Virus record (IMG/VR): IMGVR_UViG_3300030060_004303
Coordinates: 2,123 to 39,084 of that record
Source of the DNA: a virus
Direction: 5' to 3' (one strand)
Length of the DNA stretch: 36,962 bases
Part shown: positions 2,660 to 36,962 of the stretch, piece by piece
Layout of the letters: every line of letters begins with the position of its first letter
Numbering within the stretch: the first letter of the stretch is position 1
Position numbers and translations under genes: made by a program
Notes under the pieces: model-generated
What the model was told of the DNA's origin: nothing
The model's input: only the letters and a program-made list of their open reading frames with translations
The model's database searches: none

Positions 2660-3640
2660 TTAAAAGTCCCAAAAGCCCAAATCCCCGCTGCCGACCCGAC
2701 GGTCACGTCCTAACATCTGAACAGTCGATCGTTTAAACATGCCAGTCAATCGGCTCTTAACGGCCTCGTTATAATCACAAGCGCGATGCACGCCCGCTGG
2801 CGATAAGTTCGACGTAAACACGATTGCAAGCTCTCCCGACTTATAAAGACGCCAAATCTCCTCAATCATTTTAACCGTCGTATCAATCCACCAAGAGCTT
2901 TTATTGGCTGTTCCACCGATACCACCCAACTCGTCAATTAAAAGCAGATTAACCCCGTTTAACCAATTCTTAAGAGGGTCGCGGGCGTGTTTGTCATTAA
3001 ATGTTCTTCGTATGCTTTGCAACATGTCACTGTGTGCAATATATCGAGCGCGTCGGCGGCGTCGGCTATCTGAGTCATGATATCTGTCATGATACGCCGC
3101 TTCTCTTGCGAGACAATACAGCGCCGATGATTTGCCGTTGCCCGGTGAACCGAACAAAAATAAAGACGGTGGCTTGATGATCGCGGGGTCGCCTTGAATC
3201 CATCGTCGAAAATGGCTTAACGCTTCAAATTGTTCTGATGAGTCACATTCATACGCGCCGAAGTGCATGTCGATCGCGTCCGCGGGTAACCTGAGTTTAT
3301 TAAGCCGGTTAACAAATCGTCGAGGTTGCTCGCAATAACGACACATCATCGCGGTGTCGGCAAGATCGCCCGCAGGTCGGGAGTAAAACCAACCTCCTTT
3401 GCATCGACCGCAAGAAGGCACGTCACAAGCTGTTAAAGTGGGTTCACCCCGTTCTATCCAGTCGTTGCTTTCAAGATTGTCATGACTGAGGTTTGACCAG
3501 TCGCCGAAGTTCGGTTCAGGATTGCCAAGTTCTTCGGATCGATTCCGAGCTCGGGCTTTGATGTCGATTAGCATTTGATCGATTGACCGGGGTAGAGCGT
3601 CACCGAGTTTTACAAGATCATTCTTCAGGTTACTTTTCAT
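2660..3640 (-). CDS. DnaC-like AAA+ helicase loader
   Basis: This protein probably loads the host replicative helicase at the phage origin. The 326-residue product has a cysteine cluster near residues 72-103 (CDVPSCGRC...MCRYC), likely a zinc-binding module, then an ATPase core with Walker A GSPGNGKSS at about 164-172 and Walker B LLLIDELGG at about 232-240, followed by a sensor-I-like VFTSN. This resembles DnaC/IstB-type ATPases. ATG 3640 is used; a TTG at 3646 would overlap the stop of the initiator gene as TTGA, so either start is possible and translation is likely coupled. The initiator-then-loader order parallels lambda O and P. The zinc-finger-like N-terminus may contact the initiator or DNA. 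Confidence 0.85.
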   Translation of the reverse strand: MKSNLKNDLVKLGDALPRSIDQMLIDIKARARNRSEELGNPEPNFGDWSNLSHDNLESNDWIERGEPTLTACDVPSCGRCKGGWFYSRPAGDLADTAMMCRYCEQPRRFVNRLNKLRLPADAIDMHFGAYECDSSEQFEALSHFRRWIQGDPAIIKPPSLFLFGSPGNGKSSALYCLAREAAYHDRYHDSDSRRRRRARYIAHSDMLQSIRRTFNDKHARDPLKNWLNGVNLLLIDELGGIGGTANKSSWWIDTTVKMIEEIWRLYKSGELAIVFTSNLSPAGVHRACDYNEAVKSRLTGMFKRSTVQMLGRDRRVGSGDLGFWDF

Positions 3641-3642
3641 TT

Positions 3643-4209
3643 TCAATAATTTCTATAGCTTCGATTTTTGAGCTTTTGAGCCCGTCTTAGTTTTTGCTCT
3701 CTGATCTGTCGTGAGGTCGACGCGGGTGCATCAATTGTATTTATGAATTGTATATTATTGTTATCCTCTATTGTAAGTGTGCCGTGGTTTGATAGGGGGG
3801 GTGTATCGGGTTTTGATACAGGGGTGTATCGCGGATTGATACAGGGGTGTGTATCGGGTTTTGATACAGGGGTGTATCGCGGATTGATACAGGGGTGTGT
3901 ATCGGGTTTTGATACACCCTTGATTTGATCGACGTTCAATTCTACCAACGATCTCTTATAGATCGTCGCGCCTGATTTCGCGGTCGTCGTTTGATGTGTG
4001 ACCTTGATCAAGCCCGCTTCATTTAACTTTTTGAGCGCTGATCTAACCGAGCTCGGCGAGACGTTCATACGTGCGCTTATATCTCGAAAGCTGATCTCGC
4101 CCCGCCACGTTTCCCAATTTACGCGACTGATCACACCGAGCAAGACGAGCTTAACAGCTGGCGATAACTTCAGCGCATACGCCGCCAACCTGATTTCATG
4201 TTCTGTCAT
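3643..4209 (-). CDS. replication initiator with winged-helix domain and internal origin
   Basis: The 188-residue protein has an N-terminal winged helix-turn-helix (ISFRDISARMNVSPSSVRSALKKL at about 39-62, then NEAGLIKV), like the DNA-binding domain of phage replication initiators. Residues 98-136 form a tandem repeat of 16 residues built on SKPDTHPC and NPRYTPV. This repeat is imposed by five iteron-like palindromes in the DNA (3802-3916), followed downstream in the gene by an AT-rich tract (3731-3778). The order is the same as in lambda O: binding domain, iterons, AT-rich unwinding region. The C-terminus is basic (LRRAQKLKNRSYRNY). AAAGGGG lies 6-7 bases before ATG 4209. The helicase loader follows with overlap. 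The initiator role is inference from domain, origin structure and neighbour. Confidence 0.82.
   Translation of the reverse strand: MTEHEIRLAAYALKLSPAVKLVLLGVISRVNWETWRGEISFRDISARMNVSPSSVRSALKKLNEAGLIKVTHQTTTAKSGATIYKRSLVELNVDQIKGVSKPDTHPCINPRYTPVSKPDTHPCINPRYTPVSKPDTPPLSNHGTLTIEDNNNIQFINTIDAPASTSRQIREQKLRRAQKLKNRSYRNY
3731..3778. other. AT-rich tract, probable DNA unwinding element
   Basis: About 79% A+T over 48 bp inside the initiator gene, directly next to the iteron array. It would be the strand-opening region of the proposed origin. A TTATCCTCT at 3761-3769 resembles a DnaA box only weakly. Confidence 0.6.
3802..3916. repeat. iteron array, probable phage origin of replication
   Basis: Five 19-bp hyphenated palindromes TGTATC-N7-GATACA start at 3802, 3825, 3850, 3873 and 3898. 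Two spacer types alternate (GGGTTTT and GCGGATT), giving an A-B-A-B-A pattern with an exact 48-bp period, equal to 16 codons, so the coding frame is kept. The array lies inside the initiator gene and next to the AT-rich tract. Binding by the initiator is inferred. Confidence 0.82.
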
Positions 4210-4218
4210 TTCAACCCC

Positions 4219-4292
4219 TTTGTAAATATTTTCAAAACAAGCTTGACATGCATAAACTATACTGTCAAGCTTGAACGGCGTTTATTTACAAA
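4219..4292. promoter_or_regulatory. divergent early control region with two concentric inverted repeats
   Basis: Outer arms TTTGTAAATA (4219-4228) and TATTTACAAA (4283-4292) and inner arms AAGCTTGACA (4239-4248) and TGTCAAGCTT (4263-4272) are perfect 10-bp inverted repeats sharing one centre at 4255.5. Each inner arm contains TTGACA pointing inward; a TATACT lies at 4258-4263. The region separates the divergent initiator and HTH-regulator genes and is probably a shared promoter/operator. Confidence 0.7.
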
Positions 4293-4309: not shown

Positions 4310-4735
4310 ATGAACGAAGCCAAGAAAAAAATCATCTCTTCACTATCGATCAGTAAAGTCGCTGATAATGCGGGCGTCTCTCGTCAATACCTGCATTCGG
4401 TTCTTGCGGGCAAATACAAAGCGTCGCAGCTGATCGCGATACAGTTGTCGGAAATCGTCAACTCTATGTGTATCGAGTATAATGTCGCCTCCGAGTCATT
4501 TACGCCTGGCGACTTTAATGCCGACTTGATACTCGGCGATTCAATCAAACCCGAAACCGAGTTTAATGTTCATTCGATCGCATTTAGCGAGGCGAGAACG
4601 TTGACCGTTGGCGAACTTACAAAGCGATTTTCGTTTAATAAAGAGCTATTAAACTTACTAATTAAAGTAAAGGCCGACGAGGTACCGTTCGCCAGTTATG
4701 GCGGATGCATCATTAAAAACGCGGGTACGTTCTAA
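4310..4735 (+). CDS. HTH transcriptional regulator
   Basis: The 141-residue protein has a helix-turn-helix near the N-terminus (SISKVADNAGVSRQYLHSVL, about residues 12-31, then AGKYKASQ), like Cro/CI-type DNA-binding domains. The C-terminal half (FNVHSIAFSEARTLTVGELTKRFSFNKELL) is not recognised and may serve dimerisation. The frame is open from a TTG at 4271, but ATG 4310 is chosen because AAAGGG lies about 8 bases upstream and the TTG falls inside the operator. It is divergent from the initiator gene across the concentric inverted repeats, so it is the obvious candidate to bind them and repress one or both early operons. Its stop overlaps the next start as TAATG. Confidence 0.8.
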   Translation: MNEAKKKIISSLSISKVADNAGVSRQYLHSVLAGKYKASQLIAIQLSEIVNSMCIEYNVASESFTPGDFNADLILGDSIKPETEFNVHSIAFSEARTLTVGELTKRFSFNKELLNLLIKVKADEVPFASYGGCIIKNAGTF

Positions 4736-5055: not shown

Positions 5056-6246
5056 ATGATTTTACCTCCAAACCAACGACCGGCGACGCCTTTTAGATTC
5101 CGACCGACGAATCAAGATGAGCTTTGGAATATGGCGATGATGCTTCAAAATGGAGACAACCGCCGAGCTCACGAAATGATTTTATGTTATGCCGAATTTG
5201 GACATCATTTTGACTATGATCTCGGTATACTCAAGTCACAATGTTTTGTCTTAAAGGGTACACCAGGCCTTAAGGCCGACGCGATCGCCGGCATTTGTCG
5301 AAAGTCGGGCCTCGTCGGTGTTATGCGGATTTCGTCTTGGTCGGATGATCATTGCACGTATCAAGTCAGTCGAATCGATGAACGTGTCGACGGCGTCGAC
5401 ATCATTCATGAGTTTACGTTTACGCGTCAAATGGCCGATGCCCAAGGGTTAACGAGAAATCGAAACTGGGATACAATGCCCCGCCAGATGCATCGCGTTC
5501 GCGCTTTGACGATGGCATTACGTGCACTATTCCCCGACGCTGTAAGCGGCCTATATTCAATCGACGAACTCGCCGATAATATGCCGATGGATGATTACGA
5601 GCGCGCTATGATCACCGCCGAGTCAATCGGCGAAGAGTTAAAGCTTGATTCGAAACCACCGGCACCGAGGCCCGCACCGACCCCAACACCGCAACCCGCA
5701 CCGCAACCCGCACCAACACCCGCACCAACACCCGCACCGACCCCAACACCGGCACCCGAAAAAAAAAGCGATGTTGAGGTTGTCGCAGTAACCGACCCGA
5801 CACCTTATAACGAGTTTAACAATATTGACGACCTCAAAGAAGCCTGTAAATTCAATGAGATCCCGTGGCTAGATGTCGTCGCTCTCGGTCAACGCATCAA
5901 CATCAATATAGAATCGCTTGGCGGTCAACAGTTGAAACTCTTCTACTACACTTGGTGCATGTCGAAGACGCTTCGAGAGGGCGCATTATTAACCGGTTGG
6001 AATCGAAACCTAAGCGAAGCGCGAAACGTGTTTAAATCGCTAAAAGCTGAGTTTCCGAGTATCGCGAATATTGAGAATCGGCATATCGGCGCGAACCTCG
6101 GGAACCCTTCATTTTGGGAATCGGCAAAAGTCGGCGCATCGCTCGCCGGTGACGCGCTTAAAACGGCTCAAGATGATTTAGATAAACTCGCAAAGGCCAA
6201 AGGTCACGACCCGATGTTAGCTTCGAGACTGGCCGCGTTGCGGTAA
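5056..6246 (+). CDS. RecT-like single-strand annealing protein with Pro-rich linker
   Basis: The N-terminal half (about residues 1-190) resembles phage RecT-type annealing proteins: LKADAIAGICRKSG, a core strand with FTFTRQMADAQGL, and NWDTMPRQMHRVRALTMALRALFPDAVSGLYSIDEL, the latter very like the RecT-like 'R..ALRALFPDAV.GLYT.EE' block. Residues about 200-235 are a low-complexity linker of Pro-Ala/Pro-Thr repeats. The C-terminal 160 residues (from NNIDDLKEACKFNEIPW) form a separate unrecognised domain ending in a helix. At 396 residues it is longer than typical RecT because of this extension. AGGAT precedes the start by 7-8 bases. It is last in the regulator operon and overlaps the convergent gene at 6217 by 30 bp. 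No exonuclease gene adjoins it. Confidence 0.65.
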   Translation: MILPPNQRPATPFRFRPTNQDELWNMAMMLQNGDNRRAHEMILCYAEFGHHFDYDLGILKSQCFVLKGTPGLKADAIAGICRKSGLVGVMRISSWSDDHCTYQVSRIDERVDGVDIIHEFTFTRQMADAQGLTRNRNWDTMPRQMHRVRALTMALRALFPDAVSGLYSIDELADNMPMDDYERAMITAESIGEELKLDSKPPAPRPAPTPTPQPAPQPAPTPAPTPAPTPTPAPEKKSDVEVVAVTDPTPYNEFNNIDDLKEACKFNEIPWLDVVALGQRININIESLGGQQLKLFYYTWCMSKTLREGALLTGWNRNLSEARNVFKSLKAEFPSIANIENRHIGANLGNPSFWESAKVGASLAGDALKTAQDDLDKLAKAKGHDPMLASRLAALR

Positions 6247-31700: not shown

Positions 31701-32906
31701 CTAAAACAATTTGAGTTGTCCGGTTTTCTCTTCGTCTTCAGCTATCACATTTTCGCGGTTACCCGACCAATAATCAACCCGCGACTCTATAATCGATATG
31801 TATTCGGCCTCGCGTTCAATACCGACAATCTCGACACCTTCTAACACCGCGGCGCATAGCGTTGTACCCGAACCGGCGAACGGTTCCAAGACGACACCGT
31901 CGGGCGGTGTTATCAACCTGATAAGATAACGCATAAGATCAATTGGCTTAACCGTCGGGTGTATATTATCACCGTTAACGCCGGCGTGACGTTCGTAGGT
32001 GCTCGGCTTCGGTGAGTAGAAAAAACGAGCGTCACGACCTAAACGCGGGTCAAGTTTTGCTTGCTCGTCAAAGATGACGTTTGCCGGCCAACGACCTTTC
32101 TTATGACTCGGCGCTGAATATCTTAAGCCTATTTTAGAACTATTAAATTGGACCCCATTTACGCCAAAATTACCGCCGTCTCTTGTCGTTTTTTCACCGT
32201 TTAAAGCAATCCTACACCCGTCAATATTTAGCCCGCCGGTGCCATACTCAAGCACATTTTCGGCGACGGTGCCGGCGAGCGGTTTACGAACTAAAAGGAT
32301 CGGCTCGTAAGCGGGTTTTAAGGCGGTGCCGAACCCTTCGTATTTCTTAGCTTGTTCGCTTGCCGGCGCTGTAATGTCTATCGTTGTCTCTTCGTATTCA
32401 TCAACTAAACCGCATCGAACATGTCCGTTTGTATTGGTGCCTTTTACACGGCGAGCGGTGCCGGTCATTCGTTGTTCTCCGATGATTTCACGCTCAAACC
32501 CTAAATGTCTATCGAGAGCTTTACTAACATTATGACTCTTTGGAAAACCGCTTCCATAGATCCACTGCAAAACGTCGCGAACTTCAAAACCGGCCAACCG
32601 CAAAGACAACCCCATTAAATCCTGAGTTCGCGAACCGGCGAAGATTAAAGCGTGCCCCCCTGGCTTTAAGACTCGGTAGACTTCCGACCATAGAGTCGGG
32701 CTCGGAACCCAACTATCCCAAGTCTTAGACATGAACCCGCCGCCGGTCGCCGTGTATGCTTCATCGTTTAACCATGCTCTTAAACATGCCTTAACGCTCG
32801 CGGGTGTACAAGCCGATAAACCATAAGGCGGATCGGTGACGACCGCATCAAAATGGTTGTCTTCATACCCTTTTAAAACTTCTAAGCTATCACCATGAAT
32901 TATCAA
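31701..32906 (-). CDS. DNA adenine/cytosine-N4 methyltransferase, beta-type
   Basis: The 401-residue protein methylates DNA at an exocyclic amino group. Motif IV DPPYG is at residues 25-29, and the AdoMet-binding motif FAGSGTT at 343-349 after HPTVKP, so the order is permuted as in beta-class N6A/N4C enzymes. A long insertion between (about 120-290) probably holds the target-recognition region. No restriction endonuclease is adjacent, so it is an orphan, most likely protecting phage DNA or regulating packaging. It overlaps terL by four bases. Target sequence cannot be read from the protein. Confidence 0.88.
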   Translation of the reverse strand: MIIHGDSLEVLKGYEDNHFDAVVTDPPYGLSACTPASVKACLRAWLNDEAYTATGGGFMSKTWDSWVPSPTLWSEVYRVLKPGGHALIFAGSRTQDLMGLSLRLAGFEVRDVLQWIYGSGFPKSHNVSKALDRHLGFEREIIGEQRMTGTARRVKGTNTNGHVRCGLVDEYEETTIDITAPASEQAKKYEGFGTALKPAYEPILLVRKPLAGTVAENVLEYGTGGLNIDGCRIALNGEKTTRDGGNFGVNGVQFNSSKIGLRYSAPSHKKGRWPANVIFDEQAKLDPRLGRDARFFYSPKPSTYERHAGVNGDNIHPTVKPIDLMRYLIRLITPPDGVVLEPFAGSGTTLCAAVLEGVEIVGIEREAEYISIIESRVDYWSGNRENVIAEDEEKTGQLKLF

Positions 32907-34291
32907 AACGACCTCGATTTGCCCGTGCCTATTTTAACCCGTCGCGACGTTGGTGCCGGTGCGCTGTACTGTCGTCGGTCGACGATGTTTTGGTTCCAAT
33001 TCCAAGTAATGCAGTCGTATCGCAAAGCGTCAAGCGGGTCCTCTCGACCGTCTTTTTTCGGTAACTCTTTATTATCCCAGCCGTAAGTCATGAGCGCTTT
33101 GCGGATCGAATTACCCGTCGCCCGTTCGCCCGCGGTCCACACTTCGCGAGTGATGCGATATTGACCTCGCGAAAACGCCCTTTTCAATCGTTGCACCCCG
33201 TTTAATATGTCGGTGCGTATCGGGTCAGTGTTTGACCTTAACGGCATACCTAGGCCTTTCGGCGGTTCGGCCCGCATAGCTCGAAAAGCCGACCGGCCGG
33301 TTTGATCGTTACGAGCTCGCCCCGCTTTATCTGCGACCCCGTAATCAAGCCAAATGCGCGACGACGGTGCGCGACTCTTCAGCGACCGAGGCCACGCGAC
33401 GCAAAGTATCAAACGGGCTAACTCTTCGACGGTGACTTCGGCGGGGTTCATCTCGGCGGCGATGACATCGGCGCCTAAGTCGGGATCGTGAACGATAATC
33501 AAAACCGACGGTTTACGGAATCCCCAATCGATCGCGATCCGGCCCGACATCTCAGGTCGATACTTCCAATCGTCGAGAACGTGTTGGTCTTCGTCAAATT
33601 CTGAATAAACTAGACCCGACGGCGGGCGCGGTTTATTCATGACCATCGCCTCACGTTCGGCCTTCGGCAATAGTTTAGTCGCCTCGAACCATGCTTCGGA
33701 TAGATTCGCTTCGTTGACATACGAAGTGTAGAGTAAGGGCAAACACCCCGCCGTCTCTGCTAATTGACACCACCATGCGCCCGACACCGGCAAGCCGACC
33801 AAGATCATAATAGGCGATGGACCCGACCGAAGACGACCAAGCGCCTTTTGCGCGACTTCGGCGGTAAGCGTTTGACACTCGTCAACTAAGCATACCCCGC
33901 TTGTTATGTTCAGGCCTTCGAGTGGGTTGTGTGTCGCGTCGCGGGTGCCTGGGCGATAATATGAACGACACCAAACCTCCGAGCCGGTATCGGGGTCGGT
34001 CCATTTCCGCAGCGTATGGTTATAGGTCCAGTTGAGCGGGCCTAGCCATTTTTGCATTTCGGGCATTAACACCGATTGATAACGCGGGTTCGTATCGGTG
34101 ATCAGTAAAGACGATGTACCCCGCCGAAGTCGAGAGACTAAAAGAAGGGCGAAGACTAGCGCCGACGTCTTGCCCGATCCCCAACCGCACCGCGCCGCGA
34201 TGATCCGGTCATCTCTGATGATTGCCTTTTGGATCGCTTGCTGTAACGGGTTATAGATCGGCCTAGGGATCGATTGTGGCGTCGTCGTCAT
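32903..34291 (-). CDS. terminase large subunit
   Basis: The 462-residue packaging motor has an ATPase domain with Walker A GWGSGKTS at 36-43 and Walker B VCLVDECQ with the catalytic Glu at 138, and a C-terminal RNase H-like nuclease with acidic residues in RIAIDWG (Asp255) and IWLDYG (Asp316), and a third in KDGREDPLDALRY near the end. The start lies 29 bases inside the small subunit gene. With small subunit upstream and portal downstream, it drives DNA into the prohead. cos or headful packaging cannot be decided; the circularly permuted ends fit headful packaging or simply a circular assembly. Confidence 0.9.
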   Translation of the reverse strand: MTTTPQSIPRPIYNPLQQAIQKAIIRDDRIIAARCGWGSGKTSALVFALLLVSRLRRGTSSLLITDTNPRYQSVLMPEMQKWLGPLNWTYNHTLRKWTDPDTGSEVWCRSYYRPGTRDATHNPLEGLNITSGVCLVDECQTLTAEVAQKALGRLRSGPSPIMILVGLPVSGAWWCQLAETAGCLPLLYTSYVNEANLSEAWFEATKLLPKAEREAMVMNKPRPPSGLVYSEFDEDQHVLDDWKYRPEMSGRIAIDWGFRKPSVLIIVHDPDLGADVIAAEMNPAEVTVEELARLILCVAWPRSLKSRAPSSRIWLDYGVADKAGRARNDQTGRSAFRAMRAEPPKGLGMPLRSNTDPIRTDILNGVQRLKRAFSRGQYRITREVWTAGERATGNSIRKALMTYGWDNKELPKKDGREDPLDALRYDCITWNWNQNIVDRRQYSAPAPTSRRVKIGTGKSRSF

Positions 34292-34685
34292 CGTCGTCGC
34301 TTTCGTTGTCAGCTACGAGCTCGTATCGTAATTGTTCGATCATATCTTTTACGAGGTCATCGCCGTCGCTTTTCGCGTTTGTGACATTGATATCAACTTC
34401 ACGTCGTTCACCCCAATCGGCGGGCGCGACACTTTTAAGGTATGTAAACGCCGACCGCCAATCGCCCTGCAAACCTTGTTCGATCAAGACGTTTGTCATT
34501 TTCGCCCGCTGTATGCTTTGCGCTGATTTACAATCGAGAGTCCACTCGCCTTCATCGCCGGACTCTTCAAGCCACCTATAATACGTTTCTCTGCTTATGC
34601 CCGCTTGCGCGCATGCGTCGGTGATATTCAAGCCCGCTTCGAACTCTTTTAATAATCGTTCACGTACTTCTTTAGATTTCGTCAT
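34263..34685 (-). CDS. terminase small subunit
   Basis: The 140-residue product has an N-terminal helix-turn-helix (ACAQAGISRETYYRWLEESG at about 24-43), the recognition domain of phage small terminases, then a helical region (GLQGDWRSAFTYLKSVAPADWGER) that is typical of terminase small subunits, and an acidic tail (SDDDDDDATIDP). It should recognise the packaging site and recruit the large subunit, whose gene starts inside its 3' end. The ribosome-binding site is weak, so expression may depend on the upstream transcript. Confidence 0.8.
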   Translation of the reverse strand: MTKSKEVRERLLKEFEAGLNITDACAQAGISRETYYRWLEESGDEGEWTLDCKSAQSIQRAKMTNVLIEQGLQGDWRSAFTYLKSVAPADWGERREVDINVTNAKSDGDDLVKDMIEQLRYELVADNESDDDDDDATIDP

Positions 34686-34730
34686 AGTTCACGCGCGCGC
34701 ATATGGGGTGTCATATTTGTCATATTTTAG

Positions 34731-34928
34731 TCAGTCGCTACCGACCTCATTTAACACTAATTCTATCCTCGAAAGTAAATCAGTCAAGTCGGCGTGTATC
34801 TGCCGGTCATCCTCATCATTCAAATCTAACTCATCAATCCGCAAGTGAAATATGCGCCTCATCTTTTCGAGCATTTCGCCGGTCGTATAAACTCGTTTTG
34901 GATCATCGGGCGTTTTAAAGTCAGTCAT
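34731..34928 (-). CDS. small acidic hypothetical protein (65 aa)
   Basis: Not recognised. ATG 34928 is chosen because it lies eight bases inside the previous gene, matching the coupling style here; an ATG at 35063 would run antiparallel in frame through the STPR-like gene and is unlikely. The product (MTDFKTPDDPKRVYTTGEML...) is acidic and helix-rich (MLEKMRRIFHLRIDELDLN, LTDLLSRIELVLNE) and could be an interaction partner or packaging accessory because terS follows. Confidence 0.55.
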   Translation of the reverse strand: MTDFKTPDDPKRVYTTGEMLEKMRRIFHLRIDELDLNDEDDRQIHADLTDLLSRIELVLNEVGSD

Positions 34929-35124
34929 CGTCGTCTTCTCTCTTCGTCCTATGTTTTCGATTCGCTGCCCTTTGATCGGCGAGCCGTTCTTCGCGTTGTT
35001 CAGGCGTTTCGTTTTCGCGTCGTCGTCGGTGATATTCGCGTTGATAAGCCAAGCGCTTTTCACGTTGTTCGGGCGTTTCGTTTGCGCGTTGCATGCGTCG
35101 ATATAAAGCGATGAACGAAGGCAT
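34921..35124 (-). CDS. small basic protein with STPR-like 23-residue repeats
   Basis: The 67-residue protein contains two tandem copies of a 23-residue unit centred on NETPEQRE.RLA.QR, rich in Arg, Glu and Gln, followed by a basic then acidic tail (REDDDD). The period is exactly 23 residues (69 bp in the DNA). This matches STPR ('score and three amino acid peptide repeat') motifs, known as DNA-binding repeats in silkworm FMBP-1 and present in many proteins. DNA binding is therefore possible but not shown. TAATG and eight-base overlaps couple it to its neighbours. Confidence 0.68.
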   Translation of the reverse strand: MPSFIALYRRMQRANETPEQREKRLAYQREYHRRRRENETPEQREERLADQRAANRKHRTKREDDDD

Positions 35125-35312
35125 TATCTAAACAACCAAGTCGGCATGTCTTCAGCGGGCTGGTCATCGGCGAGCAAGTGAGCAGGCCAGGTGTTGTCGA
35201 TGCCTTCGAATCGACCGCGGTCTAAAGTCCGGCGCTTAATCGGCTTGCCTGATAATCGACTTTGGAGCTCGGCTAGTTTATTTGCCGATCGGCGTTTTTG
35301 GTTACCGGTCAT
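35124..35312 (-). CDS. small basic hypothetical protein (62 aa)
   Basis: Not recognised. It starts MTGNQKRRSANKLAELQSRLSG and has a basic first half and a Trp-containing second half (NTWPAHLLADDQPAEDMPTWLF). It is coupled on both sides: ATGA with the nuclease-like gene and TAATG with the STPR-like gene. The basic helix suggests nucleic-acid or protein binding. A short DNA-related accessory before the terminase genes, perhaps an HNH-like or packaging helper, is only a guess; no catalytic residues are seen. Confidence 0.55.
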   Translation of the reverse strand: MTGNQKRRSANKLAELQSRLSGKPIKRRTLDRGRFEGIDNTWPAHLLADDQPAEDMPTWLFR

Positions 35313-36703
35313 TTTGTTTTATACATCCTATCTGCAATTTTACAGACTTCGTCGATGCCTTTTTCATAGTCTTTAATCCAACCTTGATAAAACTTAATCT
35401 CATCATCTCGGCGGTCGATCACGTTTTTTAAAAATATAACGTCATCATTCAATTGAGCAATTTGCCTGACATAGCTTAGTTCTCTATCAGTGTTCATTCT
35501 TATGACGGGTTGGACTTCGGCGACGGGTTGAACTTTAAGCGCATTTAAAAGCGCTTTACAGTGATCTTCATGCGACCAAGTCAAAGATGGTAAGCCTCTA
35601 AATTCGTAGGTCGCCGGATCAATTAACAAATAATGATGAATTAACCCGTTTGATTCTAAAAGCTCGTGAAACCGCTGCAACCACTTATAAGTGCCTCGTG
35701 TATCATTTGCATGACACCAAACATTAGCCGGCAACGGCATGTTATGTTTTTTAAGTATGCTGCTTACTCGTAATTTGACTTTTGTCTGTTTAACGAATTT
35801 GACTCCAAAGTGGAGAAGAGTCATCGCGACAAAGAATTCAAGCGGCTTTAAAATATGGATTCGTGTCTTCAAACCATTTTTGTTCAAAGCTTGCTTAAGA
35901 GATATTTTAAGTTCATCGCTTATGTTAAGTAAGTTTATGTTGATTAAATCACTTTCGAACGTTGATTGTCTTTGGTGTTGGCCGGTTTCTTCTTCAAGCA
36001 TAACAGAATCATACATGAGTTCTTTAAAGTTGAATTCTCTTTGTATCGGAAACGCTAAAGCACGTTGAATCGGCACATTTTGCTTAAAATAATTTACCCA
36101 ATTTTCATTATTCCACTCGGGCCGATTCGGGTCTAACTTAATATTTAAATTAACTTTGACATCAAACGGTCTGATCACGCTTAAATGACCGTCAGTCAAC
36201 TTATCTCTAAAAGACTCATTATTTAAATTAGTCAGTAAGTTGACTATATCATATTTACGATATGTGACCCCGTTGCAATCGCCGAAAAGCACATACACTT
36301 CAGAATGTGCTTTAAGAAATGCATGCGGGTCGTTTATCAATTTTAAAAGTTCATCTATGTCGGCGAATTTATGAACGCCAACAATGAACGCATACAACGA
36401 ACCGCTTCGACTAGCAAATTCAAGGCCTTTTTGAATTTGAGCAAAATGATTACCATAGAGAAAATCTTTTTGAGTTAAGCAAGTATAGCTTTTTATCCAT
36501 TTTCGACTTTTAAGTTCGACAGTAAGTCGGCATGGGGTCGACATGTCACCAAATGGTGCTCGTTTATCTGTTATCTTTTGAGTGTCGGGATCAAAATTAT
36601 TTTTTACCATATCAATAAAAAACTTTTCGAAAATCTCCCCCGCGTGTCTTGCTTTACCAAGGCTTTCATCATGATCTTTTTTCATACTCATGTTCATATT
36701 CAA
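35309..36703 (-). CDS. PD-(D/E)XK nuclease-like protein, copy 2 (complete)
   Basis: The 464-residue protein has an N-terminal domain of about 200 residues with Glu26 (EIFEKFF), Asp53 (GDMSTPCR), Glu63 and Lys65 (VELKSRKW), and Gln89/Gln91 (FAQIQKG), the residue order of PD-(D/E)XK nucleases. All are conserved in copy 1. The middle region (about 230-390) is variable between copies, and the C-terminus is a coiled coil (SYVRQIAQLNDDVIFLKNVIDRRDDE). The preferred start is TTG at 36703 with GAGAG six bases upstream; ATG 36697 is the alternative. It follows ssb and could process DNA ends for the RecT-like protein; this is an inference. Confidence 0.72.
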   Translation of the reverse strand: MNMNMSMKKDHDESLGKARHAGEIFEKFFIDMVKNNFDPDTQKITDKRAPFGDMSTPCRLTVELKSRKWIKSYTCLTQKDFLYGNHFAQIQKGLEFASRSGSLYAFIVGVHKFADIDELLKLINDPHAFLKAHSEVYVLFGDCNGVTYRKYDIVNLLTNLNNESFRDKLTDGHLSVIRPFDVKVNLNIKLDPNRPEWNNENWVNYFKQNVPIQRALAFPIQREFNFKELMYDSVMLEEETGQHQRQSTFESDLININLLNISDELKISLKQALNKNGLKTRIHILKPLEFFVAMTLLHFGVKFVKQTKVKLRVSSILKKHNMPLPANVWCHANDTRGTYKWLQRFHELLESNGLIHHYLLIDPATYEFRGLPSLTWSHEDHCKALLNALKVQPVAEVQPVIRMNTDRELSYVRQIAQLNDDVIFLKNVIDRRDDEIKFYQGWIKDYEKGIDEVCKIADRMYKTK

Positions 36704-36962
36704 TCAATACTCTCTTTTGTTTAACGGCGCGTAAATCCTTCGCCCCAAGGTGTCGGCTGGTGATCAGCGTTAACAGTTCGCACGTTTTCGCGCGGCAATA
36801 GATAATCGTTAGGACGTTCGACGCCCTGGTCACGTTTAGACCATGACCGCCATTTATTTACCCGCACTTCCCAAACTCGGCGTTTTTCTTTGTCGAGCTC
36901 GAAGGATACGAGTTGACCTTCGACGCTAACAAGATCGCCCTTTTTCAGGGTTTGAGTTGCGC
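35690..36962. repeat. terminal homology, right copy (ssb-nuclease locus)
   Basis: Partner of 1-1261. The window ends at the last base of the 76-bp perfect match, so joining 36962 to 1262 gives one intact ssb gene and a circle of about 35.7 kb. Confidence 0.85.
36721..36962 (-). CDS. ssb: single-stranded DNA-binding protein, copy 2 (5' end outside window)
   Basis: C-terminal 79 residues of an SSB; the start lies beyond the window. The protein is identical to that of copy 1 (1020-1442) over all 79 residues, although the DNA differs at about 18 positions, all synonymous. It ends WGEGFTRR and stops 17 bases before the nuclease-like gene start, as in copy 1. It may be the same gene of a circular genome assembled from another strain, rather than a second gene. 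Confidence 0.85.
   Translation of the reverse strand, partial: ATQTLKKGDLVSVEGQLVSFELDKEKRRVWEVRVNKWRSWSKRDQGVERPNDYLLPRENVRTVNADHQPTPWGEGFTRR

Follow-up and report, generated by a model that had tools for sequence, protein, structure and literature searches.

Introduction

In bacteriophage lambda, dimers of the O protein bind 19-bp inverted repeats that lie within the O gene itself, and an adjacent 40-bp A+T-rich region opens (PMC5043065). Stx phages carry six iterons within O (PMC7466680), and oriL of SPP1 lies in gene 38, where repeats and an A+T-rich unwinding element are located inside the gene for the origin-binding protein, with gp39 as the helicase loader (PMC6316719).

The principle of an origin inside its initiator gene is one already long known from lambda and SPP1. 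The literature consulted, mostly openly readable journals, yielded no general survey of phage initiator genes that contain origins, and to our knowledge most environmental phages have no mapped origin. The DNA analysed here, referred to as the window, is a stretch of 36,962 bp (positions 2,123 to 39,084 of IMG/VR record IMGVR_UViG_3300030060_004303), in which a lambda-like origin had been predicted at 3731-3916. At this locus a putative origin can be called from sequence, and comparisons with relatives distinguish selection acting on the DNA from selection acting on the protein.

Results and discussion

The sequence record

The record is a metagenomic contig. The original prediction spoke of a circular genome, but the record does not close into a circle: its two ends, although homologous, share only 70-88% identity. 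Because the same gene module is present at both ends at this level of identity, the contig appears to run round a circular map and into a copy that has diverged. The end modules (281-1261 and 33556-36962 of the window, and 1-1750 of L030, the record bases preceding the window) encode a nuclease-like protein of ~450 aa, a small protein, and the small and large terminase subunits. A DNA methyltransferase gene (31701-32906; phrog_67, 2e-66) lies immediately downstream of the gene for the large terminase subunit.

A palindrome array within a predicted initiator gene

The features of the locus are as follows, with no strand given for those that are not genes.

2660-3646, minus strand: gene for a predicted DnaC-like AAA+ helicase loader (phrog_50, 4e-21; 63-80% identical in three homologues)
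3643-4209, minus strand: predicted initiator gene, 188 aa (translation, phrog_270 match and AlphaFold2 model)
3731-3777: A+T-rich block, putative unwinding element (ranked second in the window for A+T content and duplex instability at 50 bp)
3778-3796: sixth unit, degenerate (four arm mismatches; L005 has a counterpart at the same place)
3802-3820: iteron type A, GGGTTTT spacer (exact match)
3825-3843: iteron type B, GCGGATT spacer (exact match; all 19 positions agree with the L008/L011 unit, which is oriented the other way relative to the gene)
3850-3868: iteron type A (exact match)
3873-3891: iteron type B (exact match)
3898-3916: iteron type A (exact match)
3910-4209, minus strand: part coding for the predicted winged-helix DNA-binding domain (pLDDT about 75-92 over residues 1-100; Pfam wHTH families above cut-off)
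4239-4272: inverted repeat AAGCTTGACA-N14-TGTCAAGCTT, candidate operator between the divergent HTH and initiator genes
4310-4735, plus strand: gene for a small HTH regulator, divergent (HTH_3, 6e-4; syntenic in L005, L008 and L011)
5056-6246, plus strand: gene for a RecT-like single-strand annealing protein (phrog_561, 9e-18; syntenic in L005, L008 and L011)

An exact-match scan of the window found five perfect palindromes of the form TGTATC-N7-GATACA, which start at 3802, 3825, 3850, 3873 and 3898, span 3802-3916 and are spaced 23, 25, 23 and 25 bp from start to start. On the plus strand, the type A and type B spacers alternate. At an offset of 48 bp, 68 consecutive bases of the array are identical, and TRF reported a period of 48 with 2.7 copies, all as expected from the five palindromes, A-B-A-B-A spacers and 48-bp period originally described. 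The degenerate sixth unit, 24 bp further along the array, was absent from that description. No further copy with up to two mismatches was found elsewhere in the window, and no additional exact copy in the whole 39,084-base record. With two mismatches allowed, shuffled sequences contained a mean of 1.14 palindromes, and none of 100 reached five.

The A+T content beside the array, originally given as 79%, was measured as 78% over 3727-3776, a value exceeded at just one of the 36,913 50-bp positions of the window, and as 82.5% over 3733-3772. This block is the second-weakest duplex of the window at both 40 and 50 bp, and includes ATTGT motifs (ACAAT on the other strand) at 3734, 3747, 3757 and 3770, in steps of 13, 10 and 13. 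The only 40-50-bp duplex less stable than this tract is at 36206-36264, inside the nuclease-like gene, where no iteron array was found.

The initiator and its neighbours

The original assignment of a winged-helix initiator gene followed by a gene for a DnaC-like loader was borne out by Pfam wHTH, phrog_270 and phrog_50 matches, with both genes on the minus strand. PHROG matches of the initiator are mainly to replication initiators, and the best, phrog_270 (3e-10), is common to all four members of the four-locus comparison described below. In an AlphaFold2 model built from four homologues, the winged helix (residues 1-100) is confident, residues 101-162 are of low confidence, and a C-terminal helix occupies residues 166-186. 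The predicted disordered linker (residues 101-162) coincides exactly with the iterons and the A+T-rich block. Among solved folds, the closest structural matches were MarR-like and TFIIE-like winged helices of transcription proteins. Among viral models, A0A516LZM7 was the best match, and the matches included the putative replication protein O of phage Min27. When the initiator and loader of the window were searched against named phages by tblastn, no match was obtained, and the proteins of the homologues gave weak matches only.

The loader gene starts at TTG 3646 or ATG 3640 and abuts the initiator stop codon with no gap. Between the divergent HTH and initiator genes, alignment showed that the TTGACA and TGTCAAG parts of the inverted repeat at 4239-4272 are kept in four loci, and this repeat is more likely than the palindromes to be a transcription operator. 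Within the RecT-like gene, 5657-5758 encodes a Pro/Ala/Thr-rich repeat linker that differs in length among homologues. No exact match to the DnaA box TTATNCACA occurs in the record, which is compatible with a phage-encoded initiator.

Homologous loci conserve the DNA but not the peptide

Three homologous loci (L005/L009, L008 and L011) were identified by a protein search and by scanning viral contigs for neighbouring pairs of palindromes, and were compared with the window. Loader-based searches of viral contigs yielded no contigs beyond those already known. The initiators of L005, L008 and L011 are 79%, 61% and 61% identical to that of the window, and the loaders 80%, 67% and 63%, respectively. 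All four loci are alike in having RecT and HTH regulator genes divergent from initiator, loader and SSB genes, and all four retain the palindromes and the A+T-rich tract.

In the window, the units alternate between two reading frames, such that the same arms encode the peptides VSKPDT and CINPRYT. L005 shares the unit phases, 25/23 spacing and two frames, but has one uniform spacer type. In L008 and L011, the main units lie in one frame with a 24-bp period and encode the peptide VSRIDTPP, and L011 additionally includes one imperfect unit that is out of this frame. Read on the coding strand, the unit of L008 and L011 is TGTATCGCGGATTGATACA, exactly the reverse complement of the type B iteron of the window. 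The arrays provide a natural control, in which one DNA unit gives two peptides in alternating frames.

Codon usage was assessed at columns encoding the same amino acid in all four genomes, with the winged helix, loader, RecT and HTH as controls. Identical codons were found at 81 of 406 control columns, as compared with 9 of 15 iteron columns and 9 of 9 columns of the A+T-rich block (Fisher's test, 1e-3 and 8e-7, respectively), figures that come from four genomes and few columns. The A+T-rich block includes a 24-nt run invariant across the four genomes, whereas invariant runs in the loader gene are all shorter than 10 nt. As the unit is found in both orientations and in different frames, and synonymous codons are frozen, it is evidently the DNA of the array, and not its peptide, that is conserved.

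History of the array

The original proposal, that the array grew as a block of two units was duplicated, fits the perfect 48-bp repeat of the window, but L005, whose initiator is 79% identical, shares this layout and lacks the alternation of spacers. The 25/23 layout probably predates the split between the window and L005, and the 48-bp identity in the window may reflect homogenisation of an array already so laid out. Since L005 shares the phases and spacing yet has one spacer type, homogenisation is equally possible. That the spacers of relatives run in opposite orientations points to inversion through the palindrome or to units having been exchanged; L011 includes one unit resembling each polarity.

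Assignment of a probable origin

In light of the lambda, Stx-phage and SPP1 precedents, the tract 3731-3916 is very probably a lambda-like replication origin embedded in its own initiator gene. An array beyond chance, frozen codons, a weak duplex, initiator family matches, a kept gene order and a disordered linker all point to this assignment. Counted against it are the less stable duplex at 36.2 kb, the use of winged helices also as repressors, and a silent GC skew. The change in skew at 3.7-3.9 kb that the original prediction looked for was not seen, there being no extremum in that region, but nearly all genes lie on one strand and the skew is therefore uninformative on the origin. In the proposed mechanism, the winged-helix domain would bind each 19-bp palindrome as a dimer, and initiator dimers would assemble across the array, with opening of the neighbouring A+T-rich block at 3731-3777. 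The C-terminal helix, or the assembled complex, would then recruit the DnaC-like loader, the product of the next gene, which would place the replicative helicase. The iterons would encode a disordered linker peptide, carried as a passenger of the DNA.

The MarR-like fold of the winged helix, and the suitability of dyad sites for dimeric repressors, would also be consistent with an operator array, at which the protein acts as a roadblock to the initiator-loader operon from inside its own gene, while replication starts elsewhere. This is considered improbable, as the array is located some 300 bp into the gene, a separate conserved inverted repeat occupies the promoter region (4239-4272), and the frozen, unstable A+T-rich block would be left unexplained. 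Autoregulation and origin function of the palindromes can, however, coexist. The array folds as a single strand far more stably than shuffled sequences (z -7.0), and in other genomes palindrome pairs also occur away from initiators, among them a pair that closes a spanin gene, which could indicate hairpins, or a packaging or partition site, rather than origin iterons. However, perfect dyads fold whatever their use, and the spacers that would form the loops differ and are inverted between homologues. The terminase genes are kilobases distant in the modules at the record ends, and no partition gene was found among the proteins scanned, a subset of those in the record. A role of this kind is hence very unlikely.

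The 48-bp period stays in frame and L008 and L011 encode a clean 8-residue repeat, as would be seen if a proline-rich linker had grown by duplication in codon register, with the palindromes incidental. This is scarcely credible, as the peptide varies with frame and orientation while the DNA unit stays the same; the frame alternation, the inversion and the frozen synonymous codons contradict a repeat at the protein level only.

Arrays in other phage initiators

Repeat arrays inside the gene were also sought in 16 other initiators, which were taken from BLAST rankings and are not a random sample. Short-period repeats in each were compared with 200 codon shuffles. Ten (P22, C72C1, K68, SC_8_H2H8_2017, phi2, Soos, S1249, D339, CF183a and D326) scored above all 200 shuffles, D65 and Pavtok were negative, and the best repeat in Jamun was outside the linker. 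Lambda O itself was borderline (4 of 200), so the test is conservative. As 10 of the 16 sampled initiators have arrays that no shuffle matched, repeat arrays inside phage initiator genes appear to be common.

Searching for TGTATC/GATACA arms identified two more initiators with such arrays and VSxxDT-like peptides, one of the Lin1244_N type (L013, 5994-6953; 6e-12) and one with a weak DnaD-like match (L014, 7513-8073). In 17 genes, including the homologues, L013 and L014, the 60 bp past the array, the end of which was set by eye, rank on average within the top 11% of their gene by A+T content.

Palindromes of this form also occur outside initiators. In an 89-kb viral contig, two copies of TGTATC-N7-GATACA lie just before the stop codon of a spanin-like gene (L010, 1859-1898; L012, 3259-3298; VSKKDTTVSKKDTN), and were rejected as origin iterons for being at the end of that gene, outside any initiator. 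The pairs in bacterial contigs (L015-L020), located between genes or in small ORFs with no identified initiator, were likewise set aside and may be due to chance or unrelated.

A tentative generalisation is that winged-helix phage initiators of a broad class have an interdomain linker that is carried along by the origin DNA, where iterons may shift frame, invert and change arms while keeping their position immediately after the winged helix. If so, the specificities of origin and initiator would co-evolve inside a single gene. For phages whose initiators have a winged helix, the survey points to a simple way of locating the origin, and it provides recognition helices matched with their palindromes for specificity studies.

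Comparison with known replication systems

Like the lambda origin, the predicted origin in the window has palindromic iterons of ~19 bp in the initiator gene, an adjoining A+T-rich element and the loader gene next. The order of domain, iterons, A+T-rich tract and loader, originally likened to that of lambda O/P, was confirmed, and the iteron spacing is similar, being 20, 24 and 23 bp for the lambda iterons annotated in J02459. By this anatomy, with palindromic iterons, an A+T-rich element and a loader directly downstream all present, the origin would be of lambda type. However, the initiator has only 188 aa and a short C-terminal helix, the loader is a DnaC-like AAA+ protein, the arms are TGTATC/GATACA, and the units alternate in reading frame.

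The original view that the proteins are not obviously related to those of lambda also held. PHROG labels of the 'O-like' kind do match the initiator, but no match to PF04492 (Phage_rep_O) was found in the record at an E-value of 10, and hhalign against the O proteins of lambda, SEN34 and P22 gave a probability of 0.15%, with nothing aligned outside 31 winged-helix columns. The C-terminal, P-contacting domain of lambda O gave no homologous alignment, the tail in the window being a single predicted helix. By these tests the initiator is not a member of the lambda O family, and the absence of a PF04492 match and the hhalign result give no support to descent from lambda O.

Iteron-plasmid origins, with Rep monomers, direct repeats and DnaA boxes, are not matched, as the units in the window are perfect dyads and no exact TTATNCACA is present. 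The likeness to SPP1 oriL, which also has repeats and an A+T-rich element inside the initiator gene and a helicase loader, is one of layout. SPP1 has direct repeats and a second origin, oriR (PMC6316719), whereas the repeats in the window are palindromic and no second iteron array was seen there.

As judged by hhalign against a profile of five annotated or BLAST-related initiators (C72C1, Vibrio K68, D65, D326 and Arthrobacter Jamun), which gave 96% (5e-9), the initiator appears to belong with the winged-helix phage initiators of phrog_270 type. Both hhalign profiles are shallow, and all winged-helix initiators may therefore still share a distant common descent. The C72C1, Vibrio K68 and D326 proteins differ in being longer (265-310 residues as compared with 188) and in having no DnaC-like loader annotated directly downstream, and the C72C1 half-sites are TGTCAG-N6-CTGACA. 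Like the initiator in the window, these three include a related winged helix followed by linker repeats with a period of 21-24 bp.
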